The position numbers were made by a program, and so were the translations under genes. Below are positions 29,740-53,726 of a stretch of DNA of 64,000 bases, in pieces. Position 1 is the stretch's first letter. Each line of letters begins with the position of its first letter. The notes below the pieces were generated by a model. That model did no database searches. It saw only the letters and a program-made list of their open reading frames with translations, and was not told the origin of the DNA. Source of the DNA: Actinobacteria bacterium Ga0077560 (GTDB lineage: Bacteria; Actinomycetota; Thermoleophilia; Miltoncostaeales; Miltoncostaeaceae); assembly GCA_001464275.1 (NCBI GenBank), contig LNFL01000057.1, positions 37,016 through 101,015 on the forward strand. Direction: 5' to 3'.

Positions 29740-29925
29740 TGGCTGCGGGGTGTGCGAGGCTCCCGGCAAGACAACTGAAATCCGCGCAGGCGAAGGGGAA
29801 CTCCGGTGAGAATCCGGGGCGGTCCCGCCGCTGTGACCGGGAACGAACGCCGATGACGCCACTGGGGCTCCTGCCTCGGGAAGGCCGGCAAGTAGGTGGC
29901 CCGGGAGCCAGAACACCCAACGTGT
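29740..29925 (+). ncRNA. Cobalamin (B12) riboswitch upstream of metE
   Basis: Conserved B12-element segments occur in order: GAAGGGGAACTCCGGTGAGA, the ATCCGGGGCGGTCCCGCCGC stretch with CTGTGA, GATGACGCCACTGG (B12 box region), GGGAAGGCCGGC and GGGAGCCAGAACACC. It lies in the 361-base leader of metE. Binding of adenosyl- or methylcobalamin would shut off the B12-independent methionine synthase, a standard arrangement. Confidence 0.9.
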
Positions 29926-30044
29926 GCGCTTGTGAATCGCCCTTGGCCGACGGGGAGCTCGGCGTGGGTGCCGGTGGGTCTCCATGAGGGGTCCACCGCC
30001 TCCACGTCCGGTTCGACCGGAGGTCCCGGGCGGGGAGGAGCACC

Positions 30045-32348
30045 ATGGGCGAGGCACCCATTGGTTCCATCGACCGTCTTCGCACGGCGGTCCTGGGGTT
30101 CCCGCGGTTCGGTCCGGACCGTGAGCTGAAGTTCGCGCTCGAGGGGCATTGGCGCGGGGAGATCGACGAGGCGGCGCTTCAGGTCACGGCGCGGCGGATC
30201 CGGGCGCACAACCGGGGGCTGGCGGCGGCCGCGCAGATCGACGTGTTCGCGGTGAACGACTTCAGCCTCACCGATCACGTGCTGGACACCGCGCTGATGG
30301 TGGGGGCGGTGCGCCGCCCGGTCCCGGGGCTGGCGGGCGAGTTCGCCCTGTCGCGGGGCGACGCGGCACACCGGCCGCTGGAGATGACCAAGTGGTTCGA
30401 CACCAACTACCACTACCTGGTTCCGGTGCTGGACCCGCACGCCGGGTTCGCGCTGGACCCCTCCAAGCCGCTCGCCGAGTTGCGCGACGCCGGTGAGGGG
30501 GCGCGGCCGGTGATCTTGGGGCCGTTCTCGCTGCTGCGGCTGTCCAAGTCGGCGGACCCGGCGGCGGTGGAGCCGCTGGAGTTGCTGCCGGATCTGGTGC
30601 GGGCGTACGCCGATCTGCTGCGGCACCTGGCCTATGCGGGCGCCGAGGCCGTGCAGATCGACGAGCCGTGCCTGGTGCTGGATCTGACCCGGCGGGAGCG
30701 GGAATCCGCGTTGCGGGCGCTGGGGGAGCTCGCCGGTGCGGCGGCCGGGCTGCCGGTGACCCTGGCGACGTACTTCGGCGGACTGGGCGCCCTGCTGGAA
30801 CCCGTCCTCGGCGTCGGGCTCGCGGAGGTGCACCTGGACCTGGTGCGCGCCCCGGAGCAGCTCGAGACGGCGCTGCGGGTCTGCGCCGACACCGGGGTTC
30901 GCTTGTCGCTGGGCGTCGTGGACGGCCGGAACGTGTGGGCCACCGACCCGGGGCGGGCCCTGCCGCTCATCGACGCGGCGGTGCGGGCGCTGGGGCCGGA
31001 GCGGGTGACGGTGGCCTCCAGCTGCTCGCTGCTGCACGTCCCGTACTCGGCGGCGCGGGAGACCGGCCTGGACCCGGAGGTCCGCGGGTGGCTGGCGTTC
31101 GGCATCGAGAAGATGGCCGAGCTGACGACCCTCGCCCGCGCGGCGGTCGTCACCGGGGCGGAACGGGAGTCGGTCATCGCCGCGATGGCGGGGGCGGCGG
31201 TCGCCCGCCGGGCGTCGGCCCTCACCAACCGCCCCGATGTCCGGGCGCGGGTGGCGGCGATCGCCCCGGATGACCTGCGGCGTCCGACCCCGGTCGCCGA
31301 GCGGGCGGTGATCCAGCATGCGGCCCTCGGGTTGCCGGAGCTGCCGACCACCACGATCGGGTCGTTTCCGCAGACCCCAGAGATCCGGGAGGCGCGACGT
31401 CGCCACCGCGAGGGGGAGCTGTCGGAGGGCCGGTACCGGGACCTGATCGCCGGTCACATCGTGGGGGCGGTCGCCTGGCAGGAGCGGGCGGGCCTGGACG
31501 TCCTGGTGCACGGTGAGCCCGAGCGCAACGACATGGTCCAGTACTTCGCCGAGCAGCTCGACGGGTTCGCGGTGACCGAGCACGGGTGGGTGCAGTCCTA
31601 CGGCAGCCGTGGGGTGAAGCCGCCGATCCTGTTCGGGGACGTCGCGCGCCGCGGCCCGATGACGGTGCTGTGGTGGCGCATCGCCCAGAGCGCCACCGCC
31701 AAGCCGGTCAAGGGGATGCTCACGGGCCCGGTGACGATCCTGCGGTGGTCGTTCGTACGGGACGACCAGCCGGAGTCCGACAGCGCCTGGCAGGTCGCCC
31801 TGGCGATCCGCGACGAGGTGTGGGACCTGCAGGCCGCCGGCGCCGGGATCATCCAGATCGACGAGGCCGCGTTCCGGGAGGGGGTGCCGCTGCGGCGCTC
31901 CGAGCGGGATGCGTACTTCGCGTGGGCGACCGCCGCGTTCCGGCTGTGCTCCGGGGGCGTGTCCGACCACACCCAGATCCACTCGCACATGTGTTACTCG
32001 GAGTTCAACGAGATCATCGAGCACATCGCGGCGCTGGATGCCGACGTGATCTCCATCGAGGCGTCCCGGTCCGGGATGGAGTTGCTGGACGCCTTCGAGC
32101 GGTTCGACTACCCGGCCGCCATCGGGCCGGGGCTCTATGACATCCACTCCCCCAGGGTCCCGGACGCGCAGGAGATGGAGGACCTGCTGCGCCTCGCCGA
32201 GGAGCGCATCCCCCGCGAGCGGCTGTGGGTGAACCCGGACTGCGGGCTCAAGACCCGCCGCTGGCAGGAGGTCGAACCCGCGATCGCGGCGATGGTCGAG
32301 GCAGCCCGCCGCCGCCGCAGCGCCGTGCCGGAAGGGGCGGTGCGATGA
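30045..32348 (+). CDS. metE: Cobalamin-independent methionine synthase MetE
   Basis: 767 aa, standard length, from ATG 30045 with GGGGAGGAG upstream. The N-terminal half (FPRFGPDRELKFALEGHWRG) and the catalytic C-terminal half (TTTIGSFPQTPEIR) form the double barrel. Zn ligands are visible in HSHMCYSEFNE (His, Cys), the IEASRSGMELL Glu region and VNPDCGLKTR (Cys). It methylates homocysteine with 5-methyltetrahydrofolate. Controlled by the upstream cobalamin riboswitch, and overlapping the next gene by four bases (ATGA). Confidence 0.96.
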   Translation: MGEAPIGSIDRLRTAVLGFPRFGPDRELKFALEGHWRGEIDEAALQVTARRIRAHNRGLAAAAQIDVFAVNDFSLTDHVLDTALMVGAVRRPVPGLAGEFALSRGDAAHRPLEMTKWFDTNYHYLVPVLDPHAGFALDPSKPLAELRDAGEGARPVILGPFSLLRLSKSADPAAVEPLELLPDLVRAYADLLRHLAYAGAEAVQIDEPCLVLDLTRRERESALRALGELAGAAAGLPVTLATYFGGLGALLEPVLGVGLAEVHLDLVRAPEQLETALRVCADTGVRLSLGVVDGRNVWATDPGRALPLIDAAVRALGPERVTVASSCSLLHVPYSAARETGLDPEVRGWLAFGIEKMAELTTLARAAVVTGAERESVIAAMAGAAVARRASALTNRPDVRARVAAIAPDDLRRPTPVAERAVIQHAALGLPELPTTTIGSFPQTPEIREARRRHREGELSEGRYRDLIAGHIVGAVAWQERAGLDVLVHGEPERNDMVQYFAEQLDGFAVTEHGWVQSYGSRGVKPPILFGDVARRGPMTVLWWRIAQSATAKPVKGMLTGPVTILRWSFVRDDQPESDSAWQVALAIRDEVWDLQAAGAGIIQIDEAAFREGVPLRRSERDAYFAWATAAFRLCSGGVSDHTQIHSHMCYSEFNEIIEHIAALDADVISIEASRSGMELLDAFERFDYPAAIGPGLYDIHSPRVPDAQEMEDLLRLAEERIPRERLWVNPDCGLKTRRWQEVEPAIAAMVEAARRRRSAVPEGAVR

Positions 32349-36898: not shown

Positions 36899-37984
36899 CT
36901 ACAGCTCGTCGTCGGCGACGACGGCAAGCGACGACGCACGCTGGTATTCGGTGACCCTGCCCTCGAAGAAGTTCTGCTCCTTGCGGATGTCCATCAGCTC
37001 GGCCAGCCAGGGCAGCGGATTGGCCGTGTGCGCGCCCAGCGGCTCGATGCCCAGGGACTCCAAGCGCCGGTCGGCGATGTGGTCGATGTACCCGCGAAAC
37101 TCCGTCGCCGACAGGCCCGTCGCCTCCACCGGCAGACAGTCGTCGATGAACCGCTTCTCCAGATCCACGGCCTCCGCCATCAACTCCCGCAGGTGCGCCC
37201 GCAGCTCCGGGGTCCACAACGCGGGGGTCTCGGCGGCCATCTCCAACAGCAGCCGGCGCAGCAGCTCGATGTGGTTGGACTCATCCCGCAGCGTGTACCG
37301 GAACATCGTCCCGATGCCCGGCAGCTTCCCCTGCCGGTACAGCGACAGGATCATCCCGAACAGCCCGTAGAACTGGGTGCCCTCCATGCACTGCCCGAAC
37401 ACGAACATGTTGGTGGCCAACAGCCGCCACCCCTCCGGGTCGGTGACGTCCAGGTCACGGCGCAGCTCCCGTGAGATCTCCGTCACGAACGCGTTCTTGG
37501 CGGCGATCGTCGGGACGTCGTCGAACATCGCCTCGCATTCGTACGGGTCGATGCCCAACGAGGAGATCATGTACAGCAACGAGTCGGCGTGGATGTTCTC
37601 CTCGTGGGCGTGCCGGCCGAGGACCAGCTTCAGCTCCGAGGCGGTCACCAGCTCCCGCACCACGTGGATGATGTTGTCGCCCACGATGCCCTCGGCCGCC
37701 GAGAAGTAGCCGACCCCCATCCGCACGATCCAGCGGTCCACGTCGCTCAGGACATCGGTGGCCCGCCACTGCTCGATGTCCCGCTGCATCGGGACGTCCT
37801 CGGGCTCCCAGTGGTTCGCCTTCATCGTCCGGTACAGCTCGTACGCCCACCGGTACTTCAACGGCAACAGGTTGAAGTGCATGGTCTCCCTGCCACCGAC
37901 CACCCGTTTGGCGGCCACCGCCGCCTCCGCGCGCGCCTGGTCGAGGACGAACGTGCGGGGACCGACGCGATACGTCGTCTGCAT
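36899..37984 (-). CDS. nrdB: Ribonucleotide reductase small subunit NrdB, class Ic-like (no radical Tyr)
   Basis: 361 aa ferritin-like R2. Metal ligands are E98 (FSAAEGIVGD), E129 and H132 (HEENIH), the later Glu of CMEGTQFY, and E/H of LRDESNHIEL. The first ligand is Glu rather than the Asp of class Ia, and the position of the radical Tyr (four after H132) is Leu136 in IHADSLLYM. Both changes, and the surrounding YFSAAE and SLGID segments, match the Chlamydia class Ic enzyme, whose Mn(IV)/Fe(III) centre replaces the tyrosyl radical. The conserved C-terminal Y/W path residues (FFEGRVTEYQRA) are present. Preceded by a cobalamin riboswitch. Confidence 0.93.
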   Translation of the reverse strand: MQTTYRVGPRTFVLDQARAEAAVAAKRVVGGRETMHFNLLPLKYRWAYELYRTMKANHWEPEDVPMQRDIEQWRATDVLSDVDRWIVRMGVGYFSAAEGIVGDNIIHVVRELVTASELKLVLGRHAHEENIHADSLLYMISSLGIDPYECEAMFDDVPTIAAKNAFVTEISRELRRDLDVTDPEGWRLLATNMFVFGQCMEGTQFYGLFGMILSLYRQGKLPGIGTMFRYTLRDESNHIELLRRLLLEMAAETPALWTPELRAHLRELMAEAVDLEKRFIDDCLPVEATGLSATEFRGYIDHIADRRLESLGIEPLGAHTANPLPWLAELMDIRKEQNFFEGRVTEYQRASSLAVVADDEL

Positions 37985-38010
37985 GACTGGCGCGCCCCTT
38001 CCACGAGAGC

Positions 38011-38160
38011 TGAGCCGTTGCCGCGGGCGGGTCGACCGGGCTCATCCCCCTCGAGGGCATCACCGTTGCGGGACAGCGCCGGAATCACACCGGACTTCGC
38101 TCACACCTCGCGTCCTCCCGGGAAGTCGGGAGGCCCGCAGGAAGGTACAGGCACCCCCGG
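38011..38160 (-). ncRNA. Cobalamin riboswitch upstream of nrdB-nrdA
   Basis: On the minus strand: GGTGCCTGTACC, GCGAAGTCCGGTGTGATTCC, GGCGCTGTCCCGCAACGGTGA and GATGAGCCCGGTCGACCCGC are the conserved cobalamin-element blocks in order. It ends about 25 bases before the nrdB ATG. B12 riboswitches on oxygen-dependent class I nrd genes are known from Streptomyces; the logic is to silence this enzyme when B12 supports a class II enzyme. A class II gene is not in this window. Confidence 0.88.
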
Positions 38161-38301: not shown

Positions 38302-38440
38302 GCTGACGCCGCGGTCTCACAGACCCGGGGGGAAGCCACGCGGTGCCGTCCGCACAACCCTGTTGCCAAGCCGTACCCGACAGCGCTAGCCTTATCGCGT
38401 TATGGGGACTTCTCGTATCAAGCTATCGCCTAGGAGGCCG

Positions 38441-39124
38441 ATGTCTGAGTCGATGGAGACTTCGATTGCATCGACGATCAGGCGAGCTGTCCGTCGCGGA
38501 GGTGTCCGGTTCTGGCGCTCGGAGGAGTTCGAGGGGGGACGCACGGCCGTGGAGCATGCGCTGTCGCGTCTGGCGTCGGAGGGTGAGCTCATCCGAATCC
38601 GCCGCGGGCTCTACTGGCGGGGGCGCAAGAGCACCTTCGGGATGGGACGGCCCCTTGCCATGGACCTCGCGCGGGCGGTCATCGACAGTCCGGGTATCGG
38701 GCCCGCTGGTTGGAGCGCCACGAACGCACTCGGGCTCTCCACCCAACTCCCCGGGCGTGAGACGATCGCGGTGCCGTCACGTGTCCCGAGCGGACTTGAG
38801 GACATCCTCTGGGTGAGCCGTGACGCGCGCAAAGCCCGCCGCGACCAGAAGCTCTCTCCCATCGAGGTGGCGATGCTCGAGGCCCTCGAAGGTTTCGAGG
38901 ACTACGTCGACGTGCCGCCCGAGAAGGCCGTCGCACGGCTGCTGGAGATTCTGCTGTCCGACGAGGTCCGTCCTGAGCGGCTCGTGCGCGCCGCCAAGAC
39001 CGAACCGGCTCGTACGCGGCGGCGCCTTCGTGACCTGCTGGTCCGGGCCGGCCTCACCGACGCCGCCGAGAAGGTCCCGCCGGCACGGACGGCGCGGTCG
39101 ATCCCCGCGCTGGCGGTGACGTGA
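38441..39124 (+). CDS. abiEi: AbiEi-family antitoxin (type IV toxin-antitoxin), intact
   Basis: 227 aa from ATG 38441, which has AGGAGG six bases before it; the track start at 38402 lacks a ribosome-binding site. The N-terminal winged helix (about 1-75, GVRFWRSEEFEGGRTAVEHALSRLASEGELIRIRRGLYWR) is typical of AbiEi autorepressors. The middle domain follows with GWSATNALGLSTQLPG. Its stop overlaps the GTG of the toxin gene. It would repress its own promoter and neutralise the toxin. Confidence 0.82.
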   Translation: MSESMETSIASTIRRAVRRGGVRFWRSEEFEGGRTAVEHALSRLASEGELIRIRRGLYWRGRKSTFGMGRPLAMDLARAVIDSPGIGPAGWSATNALGLSTQLPGRETIAVPSRVPSGLEDILWVSRDARKARRDQKLSPIEVAMLEALEGFEDYVDVPPEKAVARLLEILLSDEVRPERLVRAAKTEPARTRRRLRDLLVRAGLTDAAEKVPPARTARSIPALAVT

Positions 39125-40074
39125 GCCGACTCGGCGATCGCCCCGACTTCCACGAGGCGATCGGGGCGGCATCGGGTGCGCTCCGCATCCCTGCGCCCAT
39201 TGTCGAGAAGGACTACTGGGTCACCCAAGCTCTGCGCGCCGCCCGGGAGTCCCACCCCGACGACTGGATCTTCAAAGGCGGCACCAGCCTCTCCAAGGGT
39301 TACCGGCTGATCCAGCGCTTCTCGGAGGACATCGACGTGCTCGTACTCCCGCGCGACCGAGGCGCGACTGCACGCGACCGAGCAATGAAGGGGATCGCGG
39401 CAAGCGCTGCAACCTCGCTCGGGCTCACCGGGCTCCCGCCTTCGGTCACGGCCGAAACCGGGGTCCACCGCACATACGCGCTGGAGTACACCCGCCTGGC
39501 GGGCTCCAGCAGCGCCATCCGGCCAACGGTCCTTCTTGAGATGGGCATCCGGGGTGGTCCGACACCGAACGAGCTGCGCGAGATCACCTCCCTGATCGCC
39601 TCGTCAGGAATCCTTGACCCGGCGGACTTCGACGACTTGGCGGCGTTCGAAGTGCCAATCCTTCACCCGGGACGCACTCTCGTGGAGAAGCTCCTACTCG
39701 CCGGTGACACGGCAGCGAAGCTCCGCACGGGCAAGATCGACCTCGTGCCCGCGGGCTTCGGGCGGCACCTCTACGACATCCACGAGCTGCTCGGGGCCGA
39801 TCACGTCATCGAGTTCCTCGACGACCGAGATCAATTCCTCGGCGCCTGCGACGAGGCCTTTGACATCGGGCACCAGCACTTCGGCGCCACCGCCCCGCGA
39901 CCGGACGGCGGATTCGCCGAGTCCCCCGCATTCGATATGGCTGCGGATAATCCCGTCGTACGGGCCATGACCGAGGCGCTCGCCTCCGCAGCCGAACTCG
40001 CGTTCCCAGGGGCACCGTGGCCAGACCACAGCGCGCTCGTCAAGCGCGTCCGCGACGCCGCAGACCGCCTCTGA
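39121..40074 (+). CDS. abiEii: AbiEii-family nucleotidyltransferase toxin, intact
   Basis: 317 aa from a GTG overlapping abiEi. The nucleotidyltransferase motif is complete: DWIFKGGTSLSKGYRLIQRFSEDIDVLV with GGTSLSK and the DID metal-binding aspartates, preceded by the family's VEKDYWVTQALRA. A second conserved Lys/Asp region (EKLLLAGDTAAKLR, HLYDIHEL) follows. AbiEii toxins modify tRNA or other targets and give abortive phage resistance. The scar repeat begins 43 bases after its stop. Confidence 0.88.
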   Translation: MSRLGDRPDFHEAIGAASGALRIPAPIVEKDYWVTQALRAARESHPDDWIFKGGTSLSKGYRLIQRFSEDIDVLVLPRDRGATARDRAMKGIAASAATSLGLTGLPPSVTAETGVHRTYALEYTRLAGSSSAIRPTVLLEMGIRGGPTPNELREITSLIASSGILDPADFDDLAAFEVPILHPGRTLVEKLLLAGDTAAKLRTGKIDLVPAGFGRHLYDIHELLGADHVIEFLDDRDQFLGACDEAFDIGHQHFGATAPRPDGGFAESPAFDMAADNPVVRAMTEALASAAELAFPGAPWPDHSALVKRVRDAADRL

Positions 40075-40117
40075 CCGTTCCGCAGGACGAGGGCTGCCGG
40101 CCTCTCGCCCGAGGCGG

Positions 40118-40289
40118 GGTGGTAACAGGGTGGTAACGCGCCCCACAGAGACCACGGGAGATGCGCGGCCGCATCGGAATCCGAAAGGCCTATTCTCAGG
40201 CGGTTCTCCGAGACGACGTGAGACCACGGGAGACTCCGGCGCCTGACTCATAATCCTCCGCGCGCAGGTTCGAGTCCTGCCACGCCCAC
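40118..40289 (+). repeat. Integration scar copy 2: integrase-like tail plus tRNA 3' half
   Basis: Tandem GGTGGTAAC, in-frame VVTRPTETTGD...GGSPRRRETTGDSGA ending in TGA, then the tRNA 3' half at 40238-40289 with loop CTCATAA and a perfect T arm. The variable-loop region (TCCTCCGCGCGC) and the ACGCCCAC end match copy 1, while copies 3 and 4 have TCCCTGGGTCGC and GCGCCCAC. Located 43 bases after abiEii. Confidence 0.75.
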
Positions 40290-40302
40290 TCAGATCCCTT
40301 TT

Positions 40303-40509
40303 GTGGACCACGATCTGACGCAGAAGGTGGGAGACGTTGACCAGGGAACTCGCAAAAAGCTGGTCGTTCGCGATCGCGGCTCGACACGTGCCGTGCCGGT
40401 GGTGACTGAAGATGTTCCATACCTGGGAAATGGGTTCGGCCGGCGACTTGAGGGGGTCGATGGCACGGGGATCGCGTGGAGGCCGGCGCCTATCCACGTG
40501 AATACGTAG
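40303..40509 (+). CDS. Small ORF associated with the scars, copy 2
   Basis: 68 aa from a GTG. It aligns without gaps to the ORF at 51256 over about 54 codons (shared DQGT, KL, PVV, PYLG, GF, LEGVDG) and many differences fall at third positions, which suggests real coding history on this strand. No family recognised and no Shine-Dalgarno seen. It may be an element-borne gene or part of a larger one. Confidence 0.45.
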   Translation: MDHDLTQKVGDVDQGTRKKLVVRDRGSTRAVPVVTEDVPYLGNGFGRRLEGVDGTGIAWRPAPIHVNT

Positions 40510-41370: not shown

Positions 41371-42804
41371 TCAACTGAACCGCTGGTCCGAGGACCGTTC
41401 GCTTCCCGGCGCCGGGAGGCGGGCAGCCAGCGAGCGAGGGAACCTCACGCCGACCGCACCCCCGGTCCCCGGGGCCCGTCGCCGCCGCAGCAGCGTGATC
41501 ACGAGGATGAGCGCACCGAGTCCCCACCCGAGGTGCGGCGGCCATTCGGGCGCGGGGTCGAGCCACCACTGGAGGTAGAGGAACGGGGCCGCCGAGGCGA
41601 TGACCACGGCGGGTGCCGCGATCCAGGCGGACATCAGTGGAACGAGGGCCAGCGGTGCGAGCAGGTACCAGGGGTAGCTCGGCGAGCCCAGCAGGAACGC
41701 GACCACCAGCAGCAGCCCGGCCCGGTCGAGCATCGCCCGGGCGTCGTCCCGAGGATCCCGCAGGCACCACACCGCGACGCCGCCGACGATGAGCGCGGCG
41801 AGCACGGGATACCAGCGGTCGGCGGTGACGGGACCGATGTCCAGCGGCCCGGTGAATCGCTCCGCCTGAGCGAGCAGGTAGTAGCGCCGGCCGTCGGCGA
41901 ACCCCTCCTCGTCGAGATAGCCGGGGAGATAGCCGAGGACGCCGCTGCCGACCCCCAGATACGGAAGGTAGGCCGCGACCGCCGTGACGCCGAACGCGGC
42001 GGGGAGTCGCCACATGCGTCGGCCGCGGCCCGCGACCGCTGGCAGGGCCGCCGCAACGGACGGTTTGACCAGGGCGCCGGCGGCCAGCAGCACGCCGCCG
42101 AGGCCATCCCGGCGGCGTCCGGCCACCGCGACCAGCGCCGCCAGGAGCAGCAGCACCGCGACGGCATCGACGTGGCCGCTGCGGCCGACCTCCATCACCC
42201 CGAGCGGATGCCATCCGTAGAGCAGTGCCCAGGCCGGGGGCCGGCCGATGCGCGCCAGCAGGATCCCGATGAGCAACACGCTCAGCACGTCCAGGACGCT
42301 GAAGGCCAGCTTGACGCGTGTGACCGTGTCCAGGCCGAGTTGGTGCAGTCCGGCGAACACCCCCTGCGCGACCGGTGGATAGATCGTGGGGTCGTCGATG
42401 TGGTTGATGTTCGGATGGACCACCGGGTCCCGCAGGGCGGACAGGCGCGGGTCGTCCGGGGCGTACCGGTAGGGGTTGATCCCGGCGGCCTGGACCCGGC
42501 CGTCCCAGACGTAGCGGTTGATGTCACCGGACAGATCGGGGGGGTTCGGCACCAGGACCAGTCGTGCGCCGAACGCGACGACGAGCACGAGGAGGAACAC
42601 CGCCCGGCCGCGGGGACGGCGGGTGACCACCCACACGCCCGCAAGTGCCCACAGCGCGAGCCCGACGGCCACGGCGGCGGAGTAGCTCCCGGGGTGCTCG
42701 CGGCTGAGATCCCACGTGCCCGACCAGGCCGCCACCCCGATCACGGCCGCACCCATGCCGGCCAGGACCGCGAGATCCGGCCGGGTGCCGCGCCGATTCG
42801 TCAT
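41371..42804 (-). CDS. Polytopic membrane glycosyltransferase-like protein (GT87/mannosyltransferase type)
   Basis: 477 aa from ATG 42802-42804 (ATGA overlap with the epimerase gene). About 11-12 membrane helices. The loop after the second helix, LVLVPNPPDLSGDINRYVWDGRVQAAGINPYRYAP, is the acidic extracytoplasmic loop of GT-C enzymes that take lipid-phosphate sugars. The middle segment LLYGWHPLGVMEVGRSGHVD contains a further HxD. Likely adds hexoses to a lipid or surface glycan with the genes that precede it. Confidence 0.75.
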   Translation of the reverse strand: MTNRRGTRPDLAVLAGMGAAVIGVAAWSGTWDLSREHPGSYSAAVAVGLALWALAGVWVVTRRPRGRAVFLLVLVVAFGARLVLVPNPPDLSGDINRYVWDGRVQAAGINPYRYAPDDPRLSALRDPVVHPNINHIDDPTIYPPVAQGVFAGLHQLGLDTVTRVKLAFSVLDVLSVLLIGILLARIGRPPAWALLYGWHPLGVMEVGRSGHVDAVAVLLLLAALVAVAGRRRDGLGGVLLAAGALVKPSVAAALPAVAGRGRRMWRLPAAFGVTAVAAYLPYLGVGSGVLGYLPGYLDEEGFADGRRYYLLAQAERFTGPLDIGPVTADRWYPVLAALIVGGVAVWCLRDPRDDARAMLDRAGLLLVVAFLLGSPSYPWYLLAPLALVPLMSAWIAAPAVVIASAAPFLYLQWWLDPAPEWPPHLGWGLGALILVITLLRRRRAPGTGGAVGVRFPRSLAARLPAPGSERSSDQRFS

Positions 42805-43925
42805 CCGGGGGCGACGGCCTGGATGATCCCGCGGCCCCGCAGCCCGCGTTCGGCGGCCCCGAAGTACTCGGTGATGTCGCCCTGGCCCGCGACCCAGCCC
42901 AGGTACCGGGCGATGCCGTCGGCAAGCGCCACCCGGGGGGCGTATCCCGCGGCGGCCGCGAGGGACGTGTCGGAGGTGAGGTGGCGCATCTCGCCCGGGC
43001 GGAACTCGCCGTGCACCTCCGCGGCGATGTCGATACCAAGCGCCGCCGACACCAGCCGTGCGACGTCCGCGATGGTGGTGGGGGTGCCGCTGCCGATGTT
43101 GACCGCGAGCCCGTCCAGCGCATCGGTGGTCGCCGCCAGGAGGTTCGCTTCGGCGACGTCCTCCACGAAGACCAGATCCCGTGTCTGCAGGCCGTCCTCG
43201 TAGAGCACCGGCGGCAGCCCGTTGAGCAACCGCGTCGCGAAGATGGCGATCACCCCGGTATAGGGGTTGAACAGCGACTGCCGCGGGCCGTACGTGCAGG
43301 AGTAGCGGAGCGCCACGGCGGGGATGCCGGTCTGCCGGGACCAGCCGAGGGTGAGCTGCTCCTGGTCGAGCTTGGTGATCGCGTAGGTGTTCTGGCCACC
43401 GACGGGCGCCCCTTCGGGGGTCGGCACGGACACCACGTCCGCGCCGCAGAGGGGACATGTCGGGGCGAACCGACCGCTCCGCAGGCGATCAAGCGCCCGT
43501 GCGCCGGGGAAGACGACCCCATGCACGGCGCATTCGCCGGCACCCTCCCGGTAGACCGCCTGGGAGGAGGCCACCACCACCTTCCGCACGGGCAGCCGGC
43601 TGTCGCGGATCGCCTCGAGCAGATGCGCGGTCCCGAGGCTGTTGACCGACACGAACTTGGCGATCTCGGGCATGTAACCCCCATAGGCCGCCTGGTGGAA
43701 CACCACATCGACGCCGCGCAGCGCACGCTCCACGGCGTCCCGGTCGCGGATGTCCGCGTGATGGAAGTCCACGTCATCGGGTATCCAGGCGGGACGGTCG
43801 CCACGGTGGGTCACCTGCTCGAGGTTGTCGAGGACCCGGACCCGGTGGCCGTCCCGGAGTAAGCGGTCGACCAGGTGCGAGCCGATCAGGCCCGCGCCGC
43901 CGGTCACCAGCGCGAGCTCGGTCAT
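42801..43925 (-). CDS. NAD-dependent sugar epimerase/dehydratase
   Basis: 374 aa, extended SDR. Rossmann motif VTGGAGLIGSHLVDRLL, catalytic Ser and Tyr-x3-Lys in VVVASSQAVY and YAITKLDQE, and a C-terminal NIGSGTPTTIADVARLV. Between the Ser and Tyr regions it has an insert with a CPLCG knuckle, unusual for UDP-sugar epimerases. It probably interconverts nucleotide sugars for the adjacent glycosyltransferases. Overlaps its neighbours by four bases on both sides. Confidence 0.87.
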   Translation of the reverse strand: MTELALVTGGAGLIGSHLVDRLLRDGHRVRVLDNLEQVTHRGDRPAWIPDDVDFHHADIRDRDAVERALRGVDVVFHQAAYGGYMPEIAKFVSVNSLGTAHLLEAIRDSRLPVRKVVVASSQAVYREGAGECAVHGVVFPGARALDRLRSGRFAPTCPLCGADVVSVPTPEGAPVGGQNTYAITKLDQEQLTLGWSRQTGIPAVALRYSCTYGPRQSLFNPYTGVIAIFATRLLNGLPPVLYEDGLQTRDLVFVEDVAEANLLAATTDALDGLAVNIGSGTPTTIADVARLVSAALGIDIAAEVHGEFRPGEMRHLTSDTSLAAAAGYAPRVALADGIARYLGWVAGQGDITEYFGAAERGLRGRGIIQAVAPG

Positions 43926-44575
43926 GTCCCGACCCCGGCGAGGCGCCCGAGTGCGGCGCACGTCGCCTCGCCCCCGGGGTGCCGCGCGAGCTCCTCTCTG
44001 AGGAGCGCGAGGTCCGTGACCTCGTCGACGTCGAAGGTCGCCTCCAGCAGCCCCACCGATACCCGGGCGTCCTCCGCGGCGACCAGGATCCGATCGAGTA
44101 CCGTGGCCGTGCTCATGGGGACGCCCGCGAGGACGTCGTGCCAGCCGCGCATGCCGATCAGGTAGTACCCGCCGTCGAAGGTCGGGCCGAGCACCAGATC
44201 CCGGTGGTCCAGCAGGTCGAACGCCCGGTCGACGACCGAGCGCCGCAGATGTGGGGAGTCGGAGCCGATCAGGACCGTGCGGTCCTCCCCCCGGCACCGC
44301 GCGGTGGAGAACAGGAAGCGCTGGCGGTCGGTCCAGTCGCCCTCCCCCTGCCCGAGGACCGAGACGAACCGTCGCCCCGCCAGCAGCGGTGCGAACTCCT
44401 CCCACGCTGTCACCGGTGTGACGAACCAGCCCGCCGTGGGGAACTCGGTCGCCAGGTCACGCACGAATGCGCGGTAGAGGGCGACCGCGGCCGCCGAGCC
44501 GATCCCGTGCGCCAGGCGGGTCTTCACCTCACCCTCCCGAGGCGCCTTGGCCGCGATGTACAGGCGGCGGGTCAT
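43922..44575 (-). CDS. TIGR04282/DUF2064-type GT-A glycosyltransferase
   Basis: 217 aa from the ATG at 44573-44575 (MTRRLYIAAKAP), which overlaps the GT2 stop; the track start lies eight codons upstream. Motifs IAAKAPREGEVKTRLA, LIGSDSPHLRRSVVD and LGPTFDGGYYLIGM match the rSAM/selenodomain-associated transferase 1 family, which has a CofC/nucleotidyltransferase-like fold. Such genes are found with TIGR04283-like GT2 genes, as here. The product is unknown. Confidence 0.82.
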   Translation of the reverse strand: MTRRLYIAAKAPREGEVKTRLAHGIGSAAAVALYRAFVRDLATEFPTAGWFVTPVTAWEEFAPLLAGRRFVSVLGQGEGDWTDRQRFLFSTARCRGEDRTVLIGSDSPHLRRSVVDRAFDLLDHRDLVLGPTFDGGYYLIGMRGWHDVLAGVPMSTATVLDRILVAAEDARVSVGLLEATFDVDEVTDLALLREELARHPGGEATCAALGRLAGVGT

Positions 44576-45324
44576 CGGGCCGGCGCGGCCGGCCGCCACC
44601 GCGAATGCCGCAGGATCGCCCGGGTGATGAAGATCGCCGCGCCCACCGAGCCGCGCAGCGTCCCACCCACCTTCGACACGCCGACGCGCCGGCGGTAGGA
44701 GACCGGGACCTCGAGATAGCGCAGGCCCGCCCGCCGGGACTTGACGACCATCTCCGTCGACCAGCCGTAGGTCATCTCACACATCTCGAGGCGCAGCAGG
44801 TCATCTCGCCGGATCGCGCGGAACGGTCCGAGGTCACTCACGCGCACCCCGTGCAGCGACCGCAGCAGCGCTGATGCGACCCGGTTCCCCGCCACCTGTT
44901 GTGCCGTCATGGCCCCCGTCTCGCGCCCCGACGCCACGCGGCAACCCACCACCAGGTCGGCGTCGCCGTCCAGGATGGGTGTGACGATGCGCGGAAGCTC
45001 CGCCGGGTCATCCGCGGCGTCCCCGTCCAGCAGCACGATCACATCGGCTCCCTCGGCGGCCGCGACGCCCGCGTGGCACGCGCGCCCGTATCCGCGGATC
45101 GGTTCGCTCACCACGGTCGCGCCCGCGGCCGCCGCCACCATGGCGGTCTGGTCGTGCGATCCGTTGTCCACGACGATGACGCGGTCGATCAGCGGCTGCG
45201 CCCTCAACGCCGCAACCACCGCGCCGATCGCCTGCGCTTCATCGAGCGCCGGAACGACCGCGACGACACCCGTACCGCCTGGCGTGGGCGCCTCGGCGCC
45301 CGCCGTCCCGCGGCTCACGCCCAC
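44572..45324 (-). CDS. Family 2 glycosyltransferase (dolichyl-phosphate-type)
   Basis: 250 aa. GT-A motifs are VVAVVPALDEAQAIGAVV, VDNGSHDQTAMVA, VIVLLDGDAADD (DxD) and the later SDLGPFRAIRRDDL. Similar to polyprenol-phosphate hexose synthases, which would supply lipid-linked sugar to the GT87-like membrane protein downstream. First gene of the four-gene sugar operon; 55 bases separate it from the DoxX gene. Confidence 0.88.
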   Translation of the reverse strand: MGVSRGTAGAEAPTPGGTGVVAVVPALDEAQAIGAVVAALRAQPLIDRVIVVDNGSHDQTAMVAAAAGATVVSEPIRGYGRACHAGVAAAEGADVIVLLDGDAADDPAELPRIVTPILDGDADLVVGCRVASGRETGAMTAQQVAGNRVASALLRSLHGVRVSDLGPFRAIRRDDLLRLEMCEMTYGWSTEMVVKSRRAGLRYLEVPVSYRRRVGVSKVGGTLRGSVGAAIFITRAILRHSRWRPAAPAR

Positions 45325-45379
45325 CCGGGTGCCAGGGCCCGGGCCACAAAGGACATACCGGAAGCGAGCGGTGCGGACC

Positions 45380-45928
45380 TCACAGCGGCCACCGCATCAG
45401 CGTCGGCCGGCTCCGGATGATGCGGCCATCGAGCCCCCACACCCGGCCGGCCGGGATGAGCGCGAGGACCACCAGGGGCACCCACTCATGGGGCTGCTCG
45501 AACATCCACCGGCTGCTGGTGAAGTACAGCGCGGCGAGGAACAGCTGCTGCCCAAGGCCTGCGAGTGCCGCCAGCCGTGTCAGCAGACCGAGGATCAGCA
45601 GCGCGCCAATCCCGAGCTCCATCAGCGTCACCAACCACTGCATCACGCCCCAGTTGGCGACGAACACGTGCTCGGCGACCCATCCGACCAGCGGCAGGTC
45701 CGTGCGGGCGCCCTCGTTCTCGAGGATCACGCGCGCCAGGTCCCGATCGATCAGCGTCCCCTTGTACGGGCCCACCGACACGGTCGTGAAGTCGAAGAGC
45801 TTGGAGATCCCGTTGGTGAACAGGATCACTCCGAAGAAGATCCGGATCACCGCCATGCCGCGAGCGAGGAGGTCCGCGTCGAGGAGCGGACCGGCGGGGG
45901 CGGGTGACCGGCTCAGCAGGTGGCGCAT
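45380..45928 (-). CDS. DoxX-family membrane protein
   Basis: 182 aa from the ATG at 45926-45928 with AGGAAGGA upstream. Four hydrophobic helices, with IRIFFGVILFTNGISKLFDF and QWLVTLMELGIGALLILGLLTRLAALAGLGQQLFLAALY being the DoxX-type segments. DoxX proteins appear in redox, sulfur or glycan contexts and often have no defined activity. Divergent from the acyl-CoA dehydrogenase operon across a 240-base promoter gap. Confidence 0.82.
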   Translation of the reverse strand: MRHLLSRSPAPAGPLLDADLLARGMAVIRIFFGVILFTNGISKLFDFTTVSVGPYKGTLIDRDLARVILENEGARTDLPLVGWVAEHVFVANWGVMQWLVTLMELGIGALLILGLLTRLAALAGLGQQLFLAALYFTSSRWMFEQPHEWVPLVVLALIPAGRVWGLDGRIIRSRPTLMRWPL

Positions 45929-46168
45929 GGTGTCCTTCCTGGACGTGGGCGGAGAGGTCGCCGACCGGGTCGGGCAGCGCGGCCAGACGCCGACGCGCCG
46001 CACCATGACAGCGTCCCCTCTCCCGGGCCATTACGCAGTCCTTAACCCCGCCCGGCGCCGGGCCCGGCGCCCCCGGCGTGTTCAGCGCAGCGTAAGCATT
46101 GCCCCATTGCCCGCCCGGTCAGCGCTCGTGAGGATCCGCCACGAGCAATCAACCGGAGGTGGGATGAC

Positions 46169-47302
46169 ATGCCGCAGGTGATGGATCGACTGTCCCAGGC
46201 GCTGCCGGCGATCCGCGATGGTGCGGAGTCGGTCGACGCCAACGCCGAGTTCCCCACCGCCTCCGTCCAAGCCCTCGCCGAGAGCGGCCTGCTGGGCCTC
46301 ACCCTGCCGACGGAGGTCGGCGGCATGGGCGGCTCGCCGCTCGACCTGGTCGACGCCGTGTCCGGGGTGGCCGCCGCCTGCGGTTCCACCTCGATGGTGT
46401 ACCTCATGCACCTCTCGGCCAGCGCGGTCATCTCGGCGGCGCCACCCGGTGACGCGGCGGAGACCCTGCACGGCCTCGCCGACGGTTCGTTGCTGTCGAC
46501 GCTGGCGTTCAGCGAGCGCGGCTCGCGGAGCCACTTCTGGGCACCCGTGTCCCAGGCCGAGCGCACCGCGAATGGCACCGTCACGCTCGGCGCCGACAAG
46601 AGCTGGGTCACCTCCGCGTCGCACGCCGACCTCTACGTCGCCAGCGCGCGGGCACCGGAGAGCACCGGCGCCACCGACACGAACCTCTACCTGGTGCCGC
46701 AGGCGGCCGACGGCGTGACCGTGGCGGGACGCTTCGACGGCCTCGGGCTCCGCGGCAACGATTCGGCCCCGGTCCGCCTCGACGTCGAGGTCCCCGAGGA
46801 CGCGCGGGTCGGCGACGACGGCTCGGGATTCGGCCTGATGATGCAGGTGGTGCTGCCCTGGTTCAGCCTCGGCAACGCGGCGGTGTCGCTCGGACTCGCG
46901 CGCTCGGCGCTGGAGCGCGCGATCGAGCACGTCAGCAGCACCGGCCTGGAGCACCTGGGGACCCGGCTGGCGGACCTGCCGACGATCCGCGCGTACCTGG
47001 CGAAGGCGTTCACCGACCTCGTCGCCCACGAGGCGCTCCTGCGCGAGACCGCCCGGCGTGTGGCGGAGCCGGATGACGGCACCATGCTGGCGGTGCTCGC
47101 CACGAAGGCCGGCTGCAACGAGGCCGCCCTGCGGATCACCGACACCGCCATGCGCGTGGCCGGGGGTGCCGGGTTCTCCAAGCAGGTCGGCATCGACCGG
47201 CCCTACCGCGACGCGCGGGCCGGCGGCGTGATGGCGCCGACCGCCGATGCGCTGTTCGAGTTCACCGGCCGGGCGCTGTGCGGCCTGGAGCTGTTCGCAT
47301 GA
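46169..47302 (+). CDS. Acyl-CoA dehydrogenase-like flavoprotein
   Basis: 377 aa from ATG 46169 with GGAGG nine bases before it. The ACAD fold is visible in ALAESGLLGLTLPTEVGGMGGS, the FAD-binding TLAFSERGSRSH and WVTSASHADLY strands, and the C-terminal VAGGAGFSKQVGIDRPYRDARAGGVMAPTADAL. The canonical catalytic Glu of straight-chain ACADs is not at its usual place, as in ACAD relatives acting as oxidases or on unusual thioesters. It overlaps the next gene (ATGA), so its function should be sought with it. Confidence 0.83.
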   Translation: MPQVMDRLSQALPAIRDGAESVDANAEFPTASVQALAESGLLGLTLPTEVGGMGGSPLDLVDAVSGVAAACGSTSMVYLMHLSASAVISAAPPGDAAETLHGLADGSLLSTLAFSERGSRSHFWAPVSQAERTANGTVTLGADKSWVTSASHADLYVASARAPESTGATDTNLYLVPQAADGVTVAGRFDGLGLRGNDSAPVRLDVEVPEDARVGDDGSGFGLMMQVVLPWFSLGNAAVSLGLARSALERAIEHVSSTGLEHLGTRLADLPTIRAYLAKAFTDLVAHEALLRETARRVAEPDDGTMLAVLATKAGCNEAALRITDTAMRVAGGAGFSKQVGIDRPYRDARAGGVMAPTADALFEFTGRALCGLELFA

Positions 47303-48132
47303 CGGGGGACGCTGCCGGGAACCGGGAGCTGGTGATCGGGGCGGTCGCGTACACCGCCAACGTGGTCCCCATCTGGGAGGGGATCCGCGACTACTTCCGT
47401 GCCAGTGAGACCCCCATCGACTTCGTGCTCTTCTCCAATTACGAGCGGCAGGTCACCGCCCTGATCGACGGGCACATCGACATCGCCTGGAACACCAACG
47501 TCGCCTGGGTCCGCACCCTCCGCCGCACCGGTGGAACCGCCCGGGCACTGGCGATGCGCGACACCGACCTGGTCTTCCAGACGCTCTTGGTCGCACGCGC
47601 GGGAGACCACATCGACGGCCTGGAGTCGCTGCGCGGGCGCCGGATCGCACTCGGATCCAGGGACTCCGGACAGGCGTGCATCCTCCCGCTGCACTTCCTC
47701 TCGCGAGCCGGGATCGGCGCGGACGACGTCCGGCTCGTGCGGTTCGACTCCGACGTGGGCAAGCACGGCGACACCGGCCGTTCGGACCTGGACGCCGTGC
47801 GGGCGGTGCTCGAGGACCAGGCCGACGTCGCGGCCGTCGGGGTGAACACCTGGCAGGCCCTCACCGCCGCCGGTGACGCGACCGTCGCCGACCTGCGGGT
47901 CGTGTGGGAGTCCGAGCACTACAACCACTGCAACTTCACCGCGCTGGACACGCTCGACCGAACCCTCAGCGACGCGTGGGTGAAGACGCTGCTGGGGATG
48001 AGCTGGGACGTGCCGGAGCACCGGCGCATCCTCGAACTCGAGGGCCTGCGGGAATGGAAGCTGCCCGAGCTCACCGGCTACGAGTCGCTCATGCGGGCCA
48101 TGGACGAGCAGGGCATCGGTGACGCCTGGTGA
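47299..48132 (+). CDS. PhnD/NMT1-like substrate-binding-fold protein without signal peptide
   Basis: 277 aa from ATG 47299 overlapping the preceding stop. The periplasmic-binding fold appears as IGAVAYTANVVPIWEGIRDYF, FSNYERQVTALIDGHIDIAWNTNVAWV, LGSRDSGQACILPLHFL and ADVAAVGVNTWQAL, as in phosphonate (PhnD) and sulfonate/thiamine-precursor binding proteins. It lacks a signal peptide and no ABC genes are near, so it is probably cytosolic, as in THI5/NMT1-like or enzyme-type homologues. GTGA overlap with the radical-SAM gene. Confidence 0.75.
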   Translation: MTGDAAGNRELVIGAVAYTANVVPIWEGIRDYFRASETPIDFVLFSNYERQVTALIDGHIDIAWNTNVAWVRTLRRTGGTARALAMRDTDLVFQTLLVARAGDHIDGLESLRGRRIALGSRDSGQACILPLHFLSRAGIGADDVRLVRFDSDVGKHGDTGRSDLDAVRAVLEDQADVAAVGVNTWQALTAAGDATVADLRVVWESEHYNHCNFTALDTLDRTLSDAWVKTLLGMSWDVPEHRRILELEGLREWKLPELTGYESLMRAMDEQGIGDAW

Positions 48133-49121
48133 GCACACGGCTCGCCATGCGAATGGTGGAGCTGGTCGGGGCAGCCGCCGCGGGGTCGCGCGTGTCGGTC
48201 CCGATCGACGGGACCGATCAGGTCGATCTGGTCCGGCGGTGGGCGGAGGCGACGGGCAACACGGTCCTCGTCGTCCATGACCAGGCCGTGGACCTCGTGC
48301 GCGGCCGGGTCGAGGACCCCATCCGGGCTCTGCCGCCCGAGGCCCGCCCCGGCCACCGGCTCTGGCTCTACACGAACCTGCACTGCAACCTGGCCTGCGA
48401 CTACTGCTGTGTGAGCTCATCCCCTCACGCCGCCCCGCGGATCCTGAGTGCCGCCGAGGTGCGCAGGCTCGTGGACGAGGCGACCGACTTGGGGACCAGG
48501 GAGCTCTACCTCACCGGCGGGGAGCCGTTCCTGCGACCCGACATCGACGAGGTCATCGGCATCGCAACGGGATCCCTGCCCACCACCGTGCTGACCAACG
48601 CCATGGTCTGGACCGGACGACGACGGGATCTGCTGGAGCGGCTCGACCGGGAGGGGCTGACGCTCCAGGTGAGTCTCGACGGGGCGTCCGGGGAGCTGCA
48701 CGACCTGCACCGCGGCGCCGGGAGCTTCGCCCGGGCGCTGACCGGAGTCCGCACGGCGATCTCCCTGGGCTTCCGGGTCCGGCTGGCGGCCACCCTGGCC
48801 GCCGACGCCGAGGACGCCGCCCAGCAGGTCTTGGATCTGGCCGAGCGGCTCGGTCTCGACCCGGAGGAACAGCTGATCCGACGGGTCGCCCGCCAGGGCG
48901 CGGCGAGCGACGGCCTGGTCGTGTCGCGGGCCTCGCTGGTCCCGGAGGTGTGCGCGACCGCCGACGGCTTCTGGTGGCACCCGCTGGTGGCGCTCGACCC
49001 GGCGATGCGGGTCGCCGACCCGGGTGCGTCCCTCGACCAAGTGATCTCCGAGGTCCGCGATGAGTACCGCGCGTTCCGGCTCGAGGGCGACCTGCTCGCC
49101 CACACCTTCCCGTGCGCGTGA
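48129..49121 (+). CDS. Radical SAM protein with N-terminal TusA-like domain
   Basis: 330 aa from a GTG overlapping the previous stop. Residues about 1-65 (MVELVGAAAAGSRVSVPIDG, DLVRRWAEATGNTVLVV) look like a TusA/SirA fold, but the Cys-Pro active site is absent. The radical-SAM core follows, with CNLACDYCCVSS giving the CxxxCxxC cluster and LTGGEPFLRP for SAM. A C-terminal Cys region (PEVCATADGFWWHP, TFPCA) may bind an auxiliary cluster, in a shortened SPASM manner. The substrate is unknown; coupling to the flavoprotein and binding-fold protein suggests a joint pathway. Confidence 0.8.
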   Translation: MSTRLAMRMVELVGAAAAGSRVSVPIDGTDQVDLVRRWAEATGNTVLVVHDQAVDLVRGRVEDPIRALPPEARPGHRLWLYTNLHCNLACDYCCVSSSPHAAPRILSAAEVRRLVDEATDLGTRELYLTGGEPFLRPDIDEVIGIATGSLPTTVLTNAMVWTGRRRDLLERLDREGLTLQVSLDGASGELHDLHRGAGSFARALTGVRTAISLGFRVRLAATLAADAEDAAQQVLDLAERLGLDPEEQLIRRVARQGAASDGLVVSRASLVPEVCATADGFWWHPLVALDPAMRVADPGASLDQVISEVRDEYRAFRLEGDLLAHTFPCA

Positions 49122-49191: not shown

Positions 49192-49671
49192 TCAGGCGGC
49201 CACGGGAGAGGCCAGCTCCATGGTGGTCACGATCTCGATGGCGGGAGCGACGCTGCGCGCGTTGGGGCAACGGGCCGCATGGGTGGCGTGGACCTCCTCG
49301 GCCGCGGCGCGATGCTCCTCATCGAGCTCGAGCGCGTAGGTGACCTCGACCCGGCGCAGCACCAGCACCCCGTTGTCGTCGGGTTCCACCACACCGGTCG
49401 CGGTGGCGGTGAGGGCCTCGGGGCGCACCGGGACCCTCGCGCGCAGCATGGAGCCGGCGAGGGTGCCGATGAGGCAGCCGCCGATCGAGGCGGTCAGGTA
49501 ATCGAGGGTCGACGGCAGCGGGTTGGTCGCCACGGCGCGGTAGTGCTCGGCCACCGCACCGTGCATGCCGAACTGCACGGTGGTGCCGTTGGGCGGGAGG
49601 TCCGCCTCACGGTCAAGGCTCTTGGTGCCCTCGACAAAACGCAGAGGGATGGTGGTGGTGAACGCCGGCAT
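49192..49671 (-). CDS. OsmC/Ohr-family protein
   Basis: 159 aa from ATG 49669-49671 with GGGAGG six bases upstream; the track ORF is extended through the TetR gene by antisense openness. OsmC features are NPLPSTLDYLTASIGGCLIGTL with the first redox Cys and ATHAARCPNARS with the second, about 65-70 residues later. Such proteins reduce organic hydroperoxides with two thiols. Divergent from a TetR gene with a shared operator, so probably repressed by it. Confidence 0.87.
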   Translation of the reverse strand: MPAFTTTIPLRFVEGTKSLDREADLPPNGTTVQFGMHGAVAEHYRAVATNPLPSTLDYLTASIGGCLIGTLAGSMLRARVPVRPEALTATATGVVEPDDNGVLVLRRVEVTYALELDEEHRAAAEEVHATHAARCPNARSVAPAIEIVTTMELASPVAA

Positions 49672-51035: not shown

Positions 51036-51070
51036 GCGAGCGGTCCGGGCCCCAGTGGGCGGTCCGGCCG

Positions 51071-51242
51071 GGTGGTAACAGGGTGGTAACGCGACCCACA
51101 GAGACCACGGGAGATCCGGCGTCGACTCTGAGCCCGGAAAGCCCGTTCTCAGAAGGTTCTCCGAGACGACGGGAGACCACGGGAGACACCGGCGCCTGAC
51201 TCATAATCCCTGGGTCGCAGGTTCGAGTCCTGCCGCGCCCAC
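51071..51242 (+). repeat. Integration scar copy 3: integrase-like tail plus tRNA 3' half
   Basis: Tandem GGTGGTAAC, frame VVTRPTETTGD...SEGSPRRRETTGDTGA ending in TGA, then tRNA 3' half 51191-51242 (anticodon loop CTCATAA, GTCGCAGGTTCGAGTCCTGC). It begins 35 bases after the broken RelE gene. Same subtype as copy 4 in the tRNA variable region. Confidence 0.75.
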
Positions 51243-51255
51243 TTGGATCCCTGGC

Positions 51256-51567
51256 GTGAACGGCGATCTCGATATGGACGTGATCGCCTATGACCAGGGG
51301 ACTTCCAGGAAGCTGCTCGTACTCGACCGCGACGCGGTCGTAGCCGCCCCGGTCGTGGCTGAAGGTATTCCATACCTGGGAACTGGGTTCAGCCGGGACC
51401 TTGAGGGGGTCGATGGCGGCCAGGCAGCGGCACTTGTCTACGTGGCCATGTGTGTCCGAAGCTACGTGCTGCGCTCGCCGCGCTGCGGAGGCTTGGGCGC
51501 CAAGCGGCACCCAGACCAGGGCCTGCTGGCCGAATTAGGTGCTGGGCATCGGACACGCCTCGAGTGA
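51256..51567 (+). CDS. Small ORF associated with the scars, copy 3 (longest)
   Basis: 103 aa from a GTG 14 bases after the tRNA half. Residues 1-54 (MNGDLDMDVIAYDQGTSRKL, VAEGIPYLGTGFSRDLEGVDG) are shared with the copies at 16530 and 40303; the C-terminal half has no counterpart. No known family and no clear ribosome-binding site. A conserved element-borne ORF is the best description. Confidence 0.45.
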   Translation: MNGDLDMDVIAYDQGTSRKLLVLDRDAVVAAPVVAEGIPYLGTGFSRDLEGVDGGQAAALVYVAMCVRSYVLRSPRCGGLGAKRHPDQGLLAELGAGHRTRLE

Positions 51568-53209: not shown

Positions 53210-53344
53210 CTCATACCTCCGGCTCGGTGCGTTCATCGTAGCCGGGACCACCCTCCCAGTCCCACACCCACGCACCGCCCGCCGAGCATCGTTCCTCACA
53301 GGGCCCGATCCCGATCGACCGCCGCGCCGGCAGTGGGCCGAGGG

Positions 53345-53491
53345 AGTGGTAACAGGGTGGTAACGCGACCCACAGAGACCACGCGAAAGCCGCGCTCTCA
53401 GGCGGTTCTCCGAGACGACGGGAGACCACCGGAGACACCGGCGCCTGACTCATAATCCCTGGGTCGCAGGTTCGAGTCCTGCCGCGCCCAC
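53345..53491 (+). repeat. Integration scar copy 4, with internal deletion
   Basis: Tandem GTGGTAAC and CCCACAGAGACCACG are present, then about 25 bases found in the other copies are missing so that the peptide frame is shifted, and GGCGGTTCTCCGAGACGACG resumes. The tRNA 3' half is at 53440-53491 with the same sequence as copy 3. The small ORF found after the other copies is not recognisable here. Confidence 0.72.
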
Positions 53492-53726
53492 TCTGAGAAC
53501 GCCTTGGCCAAGGTGTTCTCGAAGTGGTCGGAGTCGACCGCTACGGCGCCCAAACCCTCAGGTGGTAACACGAGGGTTCGGAAACGCTCCGAAACGATGT
53601 ACCTGACGACAGCGGTTCGCGGGATGTCGACGTCTTCACTGCCGTCGACCTGTTTGAAGGAAGATGGACCACCGTCTCTCAAGGGGCGAGCCGGCATCAA
53701 CGGCCCCCGCTCCCTCTTTGCTGATG

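Follow-up and report, generated by a model that had tools for sequence, protein, structure and literature searches.

Comparison of loci across phyla indicates that three overlapping genes in the window (the whole stretch of 64,000 nucleotides that was analysed) encode what is well supported as one functional unit, and showed at the sequence level that the third member of this unit takes two mutually replacing forms, in which a Cys-less TusA-like domain is joined to a radical SAM core in one and to an R2-type diiron oxidase in the other. All three open reading frames lie on the + strand and encode an acyl-CoA dehydrogenase (ACAD)-like flavoenzyme (46169..47302), a cytosolic PhnD-like binding-fold protein (47299..48132, inside a longer listed ORF, 47278-48132) and a radical SAM protein (48129..49121) whose N-terminal TusA-like domain is encoded by 48129..48350. 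The genes overlap by four bases, as ATGA between the first and second and GTGA between the second and third. These boundaries and overlaps had been given by an earlier sequence-only reading of this DNA and were confirmed, while the operon running divergently from the trio and the family models that already exist for its products had been missed.

Orthology and conservation of the trio

The first protein carries the Pfam N-terminal, middle and C-terminal ACAD domains and scored 518 bits against the NCBIfam model for Mycobacterium tuberculosis Rv1679 (NF049984), which is under the cut-off of 600 yet by far its best match. The second matches Pfam PF12974 (E=4e-33) and passes the cut-off of the Rv1680 model (NF049985; 429 versus 400 bits), and the third has a Pfam radical SAM domain and passes that of the Rv1681 model (NF049973; 404 versus 380 bits). 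By these matches the trio is orthologous to Rv1679 (FadE16), Rv1680 and Rv1681 (MoeX), and its order is the same as in the M. tuberculosis Rv1678-Rv1681 set (NF049986, NF049984, NF049985 and NF049973). A DoxX-like partner adjoins the trio in most actinobacterial loci; the window differs from the M. tuberculosis set in that its DoxX gene is divergent and has an operon of GT2, DUF2064, epimerase and GT87 genes attached. NCBIfam holds models for Rv1679, Rv1680, Rv1681 and Rv1678_C with no function attached, and in the literature searched on Rv1678-Rv1681 we found biomarker, proteomic and annotation mentions only, with no functional paper or named pathway. The earlier statement that no named pathway contains this trio is therefore upheld, whereas its description as undescribed is only partly right because models for the families exist.

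To examine neighbourhood conservation, which the sequence-only reading had proposed as a check, one scan of about 85,000 genomes was made with the binding-fold protein and 80 related loci were kept, from Actinomycetota, Campylobacterota, Brachyspira, Acidobacteriota, Planctomycetota and Chloroflexi. The ACAD cluster is present in 88 of 96 binding-fold-protein loci, centred about 1 kb upstream on the same strand, an arrangement that is not due to chance, and by homology the ACAD and binding-fold pair spans at least six phyla. An Rv1681-type radical SAM gene was found in 50 of the 96 loci, nearly all of them actinobacterial or acidobacterial (in the acidobacterial loci on the opposite strand), and a protein of about 420 amino acids stands in its place in 40. 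The trio is thus a conserved set, and its genes do not match well-known separate pathways.

An OsmC-like gene of uncertain membership lies 3' of the trio on the - strand (49192..49620). At one other locus (L114) an OsmC-related gene is likewise 3' of the ACAD and binding-fold pair, and a core-MetE-like gene there overlaps the binding-fold gene. A link to the MesD/MesX folate-independent methionine synthase was considered and set aside, as the MesD paper names none of the trio families.

Departures of the three proteins from their annotated families

Beta-oxidation acyl-CoA dehydrogenases have a catalytic Glu, whereas the ACAD-like protein of the trio has none at either possible position. The canonical column, whose missing Glu the sequence-only reading had noted, is Ala in 86 of 86 homologues (Ala356 in the window protein), and the alternative column, of the isovaleryl-CoA dehydrogenase type, holds W, Y, F, L, T and others but no Glu across the alignment. 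His81 and His122 are conserved. The nearest solved structures are ordinary ACADs, and the monooxygenase-type DszC and nitrososynthases match too. We propose that, in place of acyl-CoA alpha,beta-dehydrogenation, this flavoenzyme would catalyse the oxidation that follows the radical SAM or diiron step, and may do so either by oxidising a thioether sulfur in the manner of DszC or by a dehydrogenation assisted by His.

The binding-fold protein is closest to the PhnD/PtxB phosphite- and phosphonate-binding proteins, in which an STS-H motif holds the anion (PMC5700983). Those periplasmic proteins have a signal peptide, ABC partners and the STS-H motif, while the trio protein is without all three. 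As a median of 8 residues precedes the first strand in 94 homologues, there is no signal peptide; no conserved ABC permease or ATPase cluster was found beside the gene in 96 loci; and the STS-H columns hold S, then A, G, P, S or T, then Q or H, and finally S or G (mainly S-(A/G)-(Q/H) and S), so that the motif is not conserved. Both absences claimed for this fold, of a signal peptide and of an ABC partner, thus extend to the family. Asn65, Arg87, Lys155, His156, Asp158, His210 and Cys211 are almost invariant among 94 sequences. The protein looks like a cytosolic carrier or enzyme, which may grip an intermediate through Lys155, His156, Asp158, His210 and Cys211.

These features bear on the annotations taken at face value, by which FadE16 would belong to beta-oxidation, Rv1680 to a phosphonate transporter and MoeX to molybdopterin synthesis. 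The ACAD-like and binding-fold proteins do resemble such proteins at the level of fold, FadE16 has been grouped with beta-oxidation enzymes (PMC11250799), and structure modelling has led to the proposal that Rv1680 is part of a phosphonate transporter (PMC8562490). The replacement of the catalytic Glu by Ala throughout the homologues, the lack of a signal peptide and ABC cluster, the replaced anion motif and the substitution of a diiron enzyme for the radical SAM partner in other phyla argue against these assignments, which we regard as very improbable.

The radical SAM protein contains a CX3CX2C motif, an invariant Cys94 and a likewise invariant C-terminal Cys329, and its C-terminal tail is conserved, with FPCA in most alignment rows. 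No SPASM match was found in it; the MoaA model scored 64.6 bits, below its cut-off of 284, and the other weak NCBIfam matches of the core were to PqqE, AhbD and mycofactocin models. A peptide-modifying, RiPP-type radical system would agree with the relation of this core to SkfB-type maturases and with the weak match to a GrrP-type orphan binding-fold protein from another radical SAM system. We give that alternative hardly any weight, given the missing SPASM match and the lack of a small ORF conserved in at least five diiron loci, the latter of which led us to reject a RiPP precursor.

The N-terminal domain of the window's radical SAM protein has no Cys, as had been claimed, and its model (pLDDT 89), from which the first strand is absent, resembles TusA and TsuB, with superposition at an rmsd of 1.8-2.2 Å and Foldseek probabilities of 0.98-0.99 but E values of only 0.3-0.5. 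It would thus share the fold of the TusA sulfurtransferase while lacking the active-site Cys. As no persulfide can be carried without this Cys, we propose that the domain docks partners. Radical SAM relatives without the TusA-like domain include fusions to a calcineurin-like phosphoesterase and shorter proteins adjoined by CMD/AhpD-like, DoxX and, at several loci, DUF4383 genes.

Exchange of radical SAM and diiron partners on a TusA-like domain

The protein of about 420 amino acids that takes the place of the radical SAM protein bears at its C-terminus a ferritin-like domain with a full set of diiron ligands (E201, E233, H236, E283, E313 and H316), all invariant or nearly so. A profile of this protein hits ribonucleotide reductase R2 (E=3.5e-7) as well as a VlmB-type protein and R2-like oxidases, and its Pfam and NCBIfam matches are weak. 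The predicted four-carboxylate, two-histidine ferritin-like diiron site is common to R2 and the R2-like ligand-binding oxidases, but the protein differs from R2 in its TusA-like fusion, its conserved C-terminal tail of the HTPN(F/L)M type and its location in one operon with the genes for the ACAD and the binding-fold protein.

The N-terminal domain of the diiron protein was modelled with the b-a-b-a-b-b topology of TusA and a core pLDDT above 90, its first four structural matches are TusA and the TusA-like TsuB (E. coli TusA at an rmsd of 2.0 Å and TMt 0.82), and at the level of sequence the diiron-protein profile picks up TusA as well (E=0.006). Models of the N-terminal domains of both partner types match TusA/TsuB at an rmsd of 1.7-2.3 Å, with strong matches for the diiron form. 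Direct comparison of the two domains by hhalign gave a probability of 91.7% (E=8e-7) with trimmed alignments; an earlier untrimmed comparison of the sequences was weak (76%).

Hosts of the diiron partner are Campylobacterota, Brachyspira, Planctomycetes, a Chloroflexi locus and some actinobacteria. Among 42 whole genomes, 21 encode a full-length TusA-like radical SAM protein, 15 a full-length TusA-like diiron protein and none both (p=1e-6, which is not a population estimate because the genomes were chosen for carrying the pair or a radical SAM relative). In a tree of the ACAD and binding-fold proteins, the pairs from planctomycetes, whose partner is the diiron protein, are placed on the radical SAM side of a fully supported branch, and nearly all bootstrap trees therefore require at least two changes of partner.

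Radical SAM enzymes and metal oxidases are known to swap for one step in the O2-independent and O2-dependent pairs HemN and HemF, and BchE and AcsF. The present exchange differs in that the two forms have a fused non-catalytic domain in common, and in that the diiron form occurs in microaerophiles and anaerobes whereas many radical SAM hosts are aerobes. In the sources searched we found no description of a radical SAM/diiron exchange on a common TusA-like domain. We infer that the shared step would be a hydrogen abstraction or oxidation feasible for radical SAM and diiron enzymes alike; a swap of the two on one domain limits the possible chemistry to what is within reach of both, and this is testable.

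Sugar genes and a possible methylthioxylose link

The operon directly upstream of the trio, on the opposite strand (41371-46006), is separated from it by a 162-base gap (46007..46168) that is a candidate shared promoter region. Its first gene encodes a DoxX-family membrane protein (45380..46006, - strand; it matches the DoxX proteins of the other loci weakly, at 49 bits), followed on the same strand by overlapping genes for a GT2 polyprenyl-phosphate-sugar-synthase-like protein (44572..45324), a DUF2064/TIGR04282 protein with a CofC-like fold (43922..44599; 135 bits against a TIGR04282 cut-off of 134) that is a proposed sugar-1-phosphate nucleotidyltransferase, an NAD-dependent sugar epimerase/dehydratase (42801..43925) and a GT87 membrane glycosyltransferase (41371..42804). 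Members of these families are repeatedly found close to the trio in other actinobacteria, and in acidobacteria too. With all loci scored alike, DoxX or DUF4383 was found near 41 of 48 radical SAM loci versus 0 of 38 diiron loci; for the presence nearby of two or more genes out of GT2, DUF2064, epimerase and phosphorylase, the counts were 17 of 48 and 0 of 38. Many radical SAM loci with full flanks have DoxX only and no sugar genes. In one genome (G200) the trio, the sugar genes and DoxX are joined in a contiguous, co-directional operon, ACAD-SBP-rSAM-EPI-GT2-DUF2064-GTC-DoxX.

These neighbours bear on the possibility that the trio makes some small cofactor or metabolite with no relation to sulfur. 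Radical SAM cores of this kind, with the weak MoaA, PqqE, AhbD and mycofactocin matches given above, are common in cofactor pathways, and cytosolic binding-fold enzymes are known in the menaquinone and thiamin pathways. However, cofactor genes are not among the conserved neighbours of the trio, which are DoxX and genes of sugar activation, and riboswitch control was rejected, with Rfam finding none in 17 loci and none near the trio within the window; we consider a cofactor pathway unlikely. The sequence-only reading had suggested cofactor or sulfur-compound biosynthesis: for the former no evidence was found, and for the latter the DoxX/DoxD-like neighbours and a methylthioxylose (MTX)-type module provide circumstantial support.

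In M. simiae and in the genome with the ACAD and binding-fold pair nearest to the M. simiae pair in the tree (G151), an MTX-type locus with a 450-amino-acid membrane transferase, GT2, DUF2064 and epimerase lies 10-18 kb from the trio, with a phosphorylase and a FabH-like gene in addition in M. simiae. We take the order of this locus to be that of M. tuberculosis Rv0533-Rv0541c. Arsenosugar biosynthesis, prompted by the TIGR04282/04283 names and the phosphorylase, was rejected as the gene set fits an MTX-type locus better. MtxS (Rv0539) and MtxT (Rv0541c) are enzymes of the MTX capping of lipoarabinomannan (LAM; PMC8780516), the MTX donor starts from 5'-methylthioadenosine (MTA; PMC11127046), and the sulfoxide form, MSX, is found beside MTX in LAM (PMC8531672). 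The window has counterparts of the M. simiae GT2 (43% identity), epimerase (40% identity) and DUF2064 protein, which together count as an MTX-type module. It differs from the known MTX locus, which is without the trio, in having no adjoining phosphorylase and a GT87 transferase with no similarity to the M. simiae MtxT-like protein, so that the sugar acceptor, and perhaps the sugar, would differ. No MTA phosphorylase gene lies beside the window operon; one is present elsewhere in the window's genome.

The epimerase is present in 16 of 16 tested actinobacterial genomes with the TusA-like radical SAM protein versus 73 of 397 sampled genomes of the phylum, and in 10 of the 14 pair-carrying genomes within that sample (Fisher p=1.4e-5, not corrected for kinship), but the family occurs in other contexts and is not by itself a specific MTX marker. 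Among 121 sampled genomes of the Mycobacteriaceae, the family of G151, all three trio genomes encode an MtxT-like protein, while 43 of the 46 genomes with such a protein are without the trio. Owing to this one-way association the trio is at most an optional add-on, and, since MTX-type genes are missing from the surroundings of diiron trios, the core reaction cannot be one confined to the MTX sugar. We found no description of the co-location of trio and MTX-type module in the sources searched, and the evidence for the link is circumstantial.

In Campylobacterota and Brachyspira the diiron trio forms an operon of three genes that stands by itself between unrelated flanks, and the substrate must therefore be common to both forms. 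Such operons would also suit a stand-alone salvage or detoxification of a sulfur or adenosyl by-product, such as methylthioribose or 5'-deoxyadenosine, in which the sugar-cap cluster merely shares a precursor pool. Two actinobacterial diiron loci, both of one genus, have an MTA-phosphorylase-like gene 6.5 kb away, and MTX-type clusters often occur without the trio; on the other hand, the diiron form does not cluster with any known salvage enzyme, and the trio and sugar genes share the tight operon of G200. Salvage of this kind is a possibility to which we assign roughly one chance in four.

The reading that we tentatively prefer, while holding it to be somewhat less than an even prospect, is that the trio is a cytosolic redox and radical module acting on a small sulfur-containing metabolite, and that in actinobacteria it is an optional add-on to MTX-type sugar caps. 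The radical SAM half, or the diiron half, would oxidise an unactivated position of the substrate, for which our best guess is an MTA-related metabolite. In actinobacteria, the product may feed or tailor the MTA-derived methylthio-pentose, for example by conversion of MTX to MSX or as an alternative precursor, and tailoring could take place before or after the methylthio-pentose is loaded on its polyprenyl carrier.

For M. tuberculosis, three labels attached to this trio, beta-oxidation, phosphonate transport and molybdopterin, are probably wrong. It is conceivable, although we would put it at little better than one chance in four, that the trio represents an undescribed pathway, found in M. 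tuberculosis as well, in which interchangeable radical SAM and diiron halves on a Cys-less TusA-like docking domain work with a Glu-less ACAD-fold flavoenzyme and a cytosolic enzyme of periplasmic-binding fold to supply or tailor methylthio-pentoses of the cell envelope. If the MTX link is true, these would be genes that act in the tailoring, so far poorly understood, of a sugar on which urine tests for tuberculosis draw.

Relatives of Rv1681 that lack the TusA-like domain

In the radical SAM relatives of Rv1681 at loci L131-L136, the TusA-like domain is replaced by an N-terminal calcineurin-like phosphoesterase domain. The genes for the short relatives of Rv1681 at loci L137-L143 adjoin CMD/AhpD-like and DoxX genes, with DUF4383 also present in several, and in two genomes with short relatives (G043 and G280) the pair of ACAD and binding-fold genes was found at a separate place in the genome.

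Other neighbours of the pair and the diiron form

In one actinobacterial genome (locus L114), a core methionine-synthase-like gene encoding the MetE catalytic domain (positions 8759-9970 of that locus) shares a 4-base overlap with the binding-fold gene and is followed by an OsmC-related gene. The Chloroflexi genome that contains locus L081 (G417) encodes three more diiron-domain paralogues without the TusA-like domain on contigs C6 and C202, two of which are separated by about 1 kb. Alignments of the two alternative partners (A3 and A4) revealed that the C-terminal tails of both are strongly conserved, the diiron form carrying HTPN(F/L)M and most radical SAM forms FPCA.

Cobalamin riboswitches in the window

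Two cobalamin riboswitches were identified in the window. The first (29772-29938, forward strand) lies directly 5' of the gene for MetE, the B12-independent methionine synthase (30045-32348), and the second (38009-38153, reverse strand) lies 5' of a ribonucleotide reductase small-subunit gene (36899-37984), which is followed by the large-subunit gene. An AbiEi/AbiEii-like type IV toxin-antitoxin pair was also observed at 38402-40074.

Direct repeats around the module

Imperfect direct repeats with 78-93% identity occur at 40108-40464, 51061-51417, and 53335-53492, and contain the 3' half of a tRNA-Met-like sequence; ARAGORN detected no intact tRNA. The repeats bound an 11-kb block comprising the whole module together with OsmC, TetR, and toxin-antitoxin-like genes. 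The block may represent an ancient genomic island whose attachment site was a tRNA.
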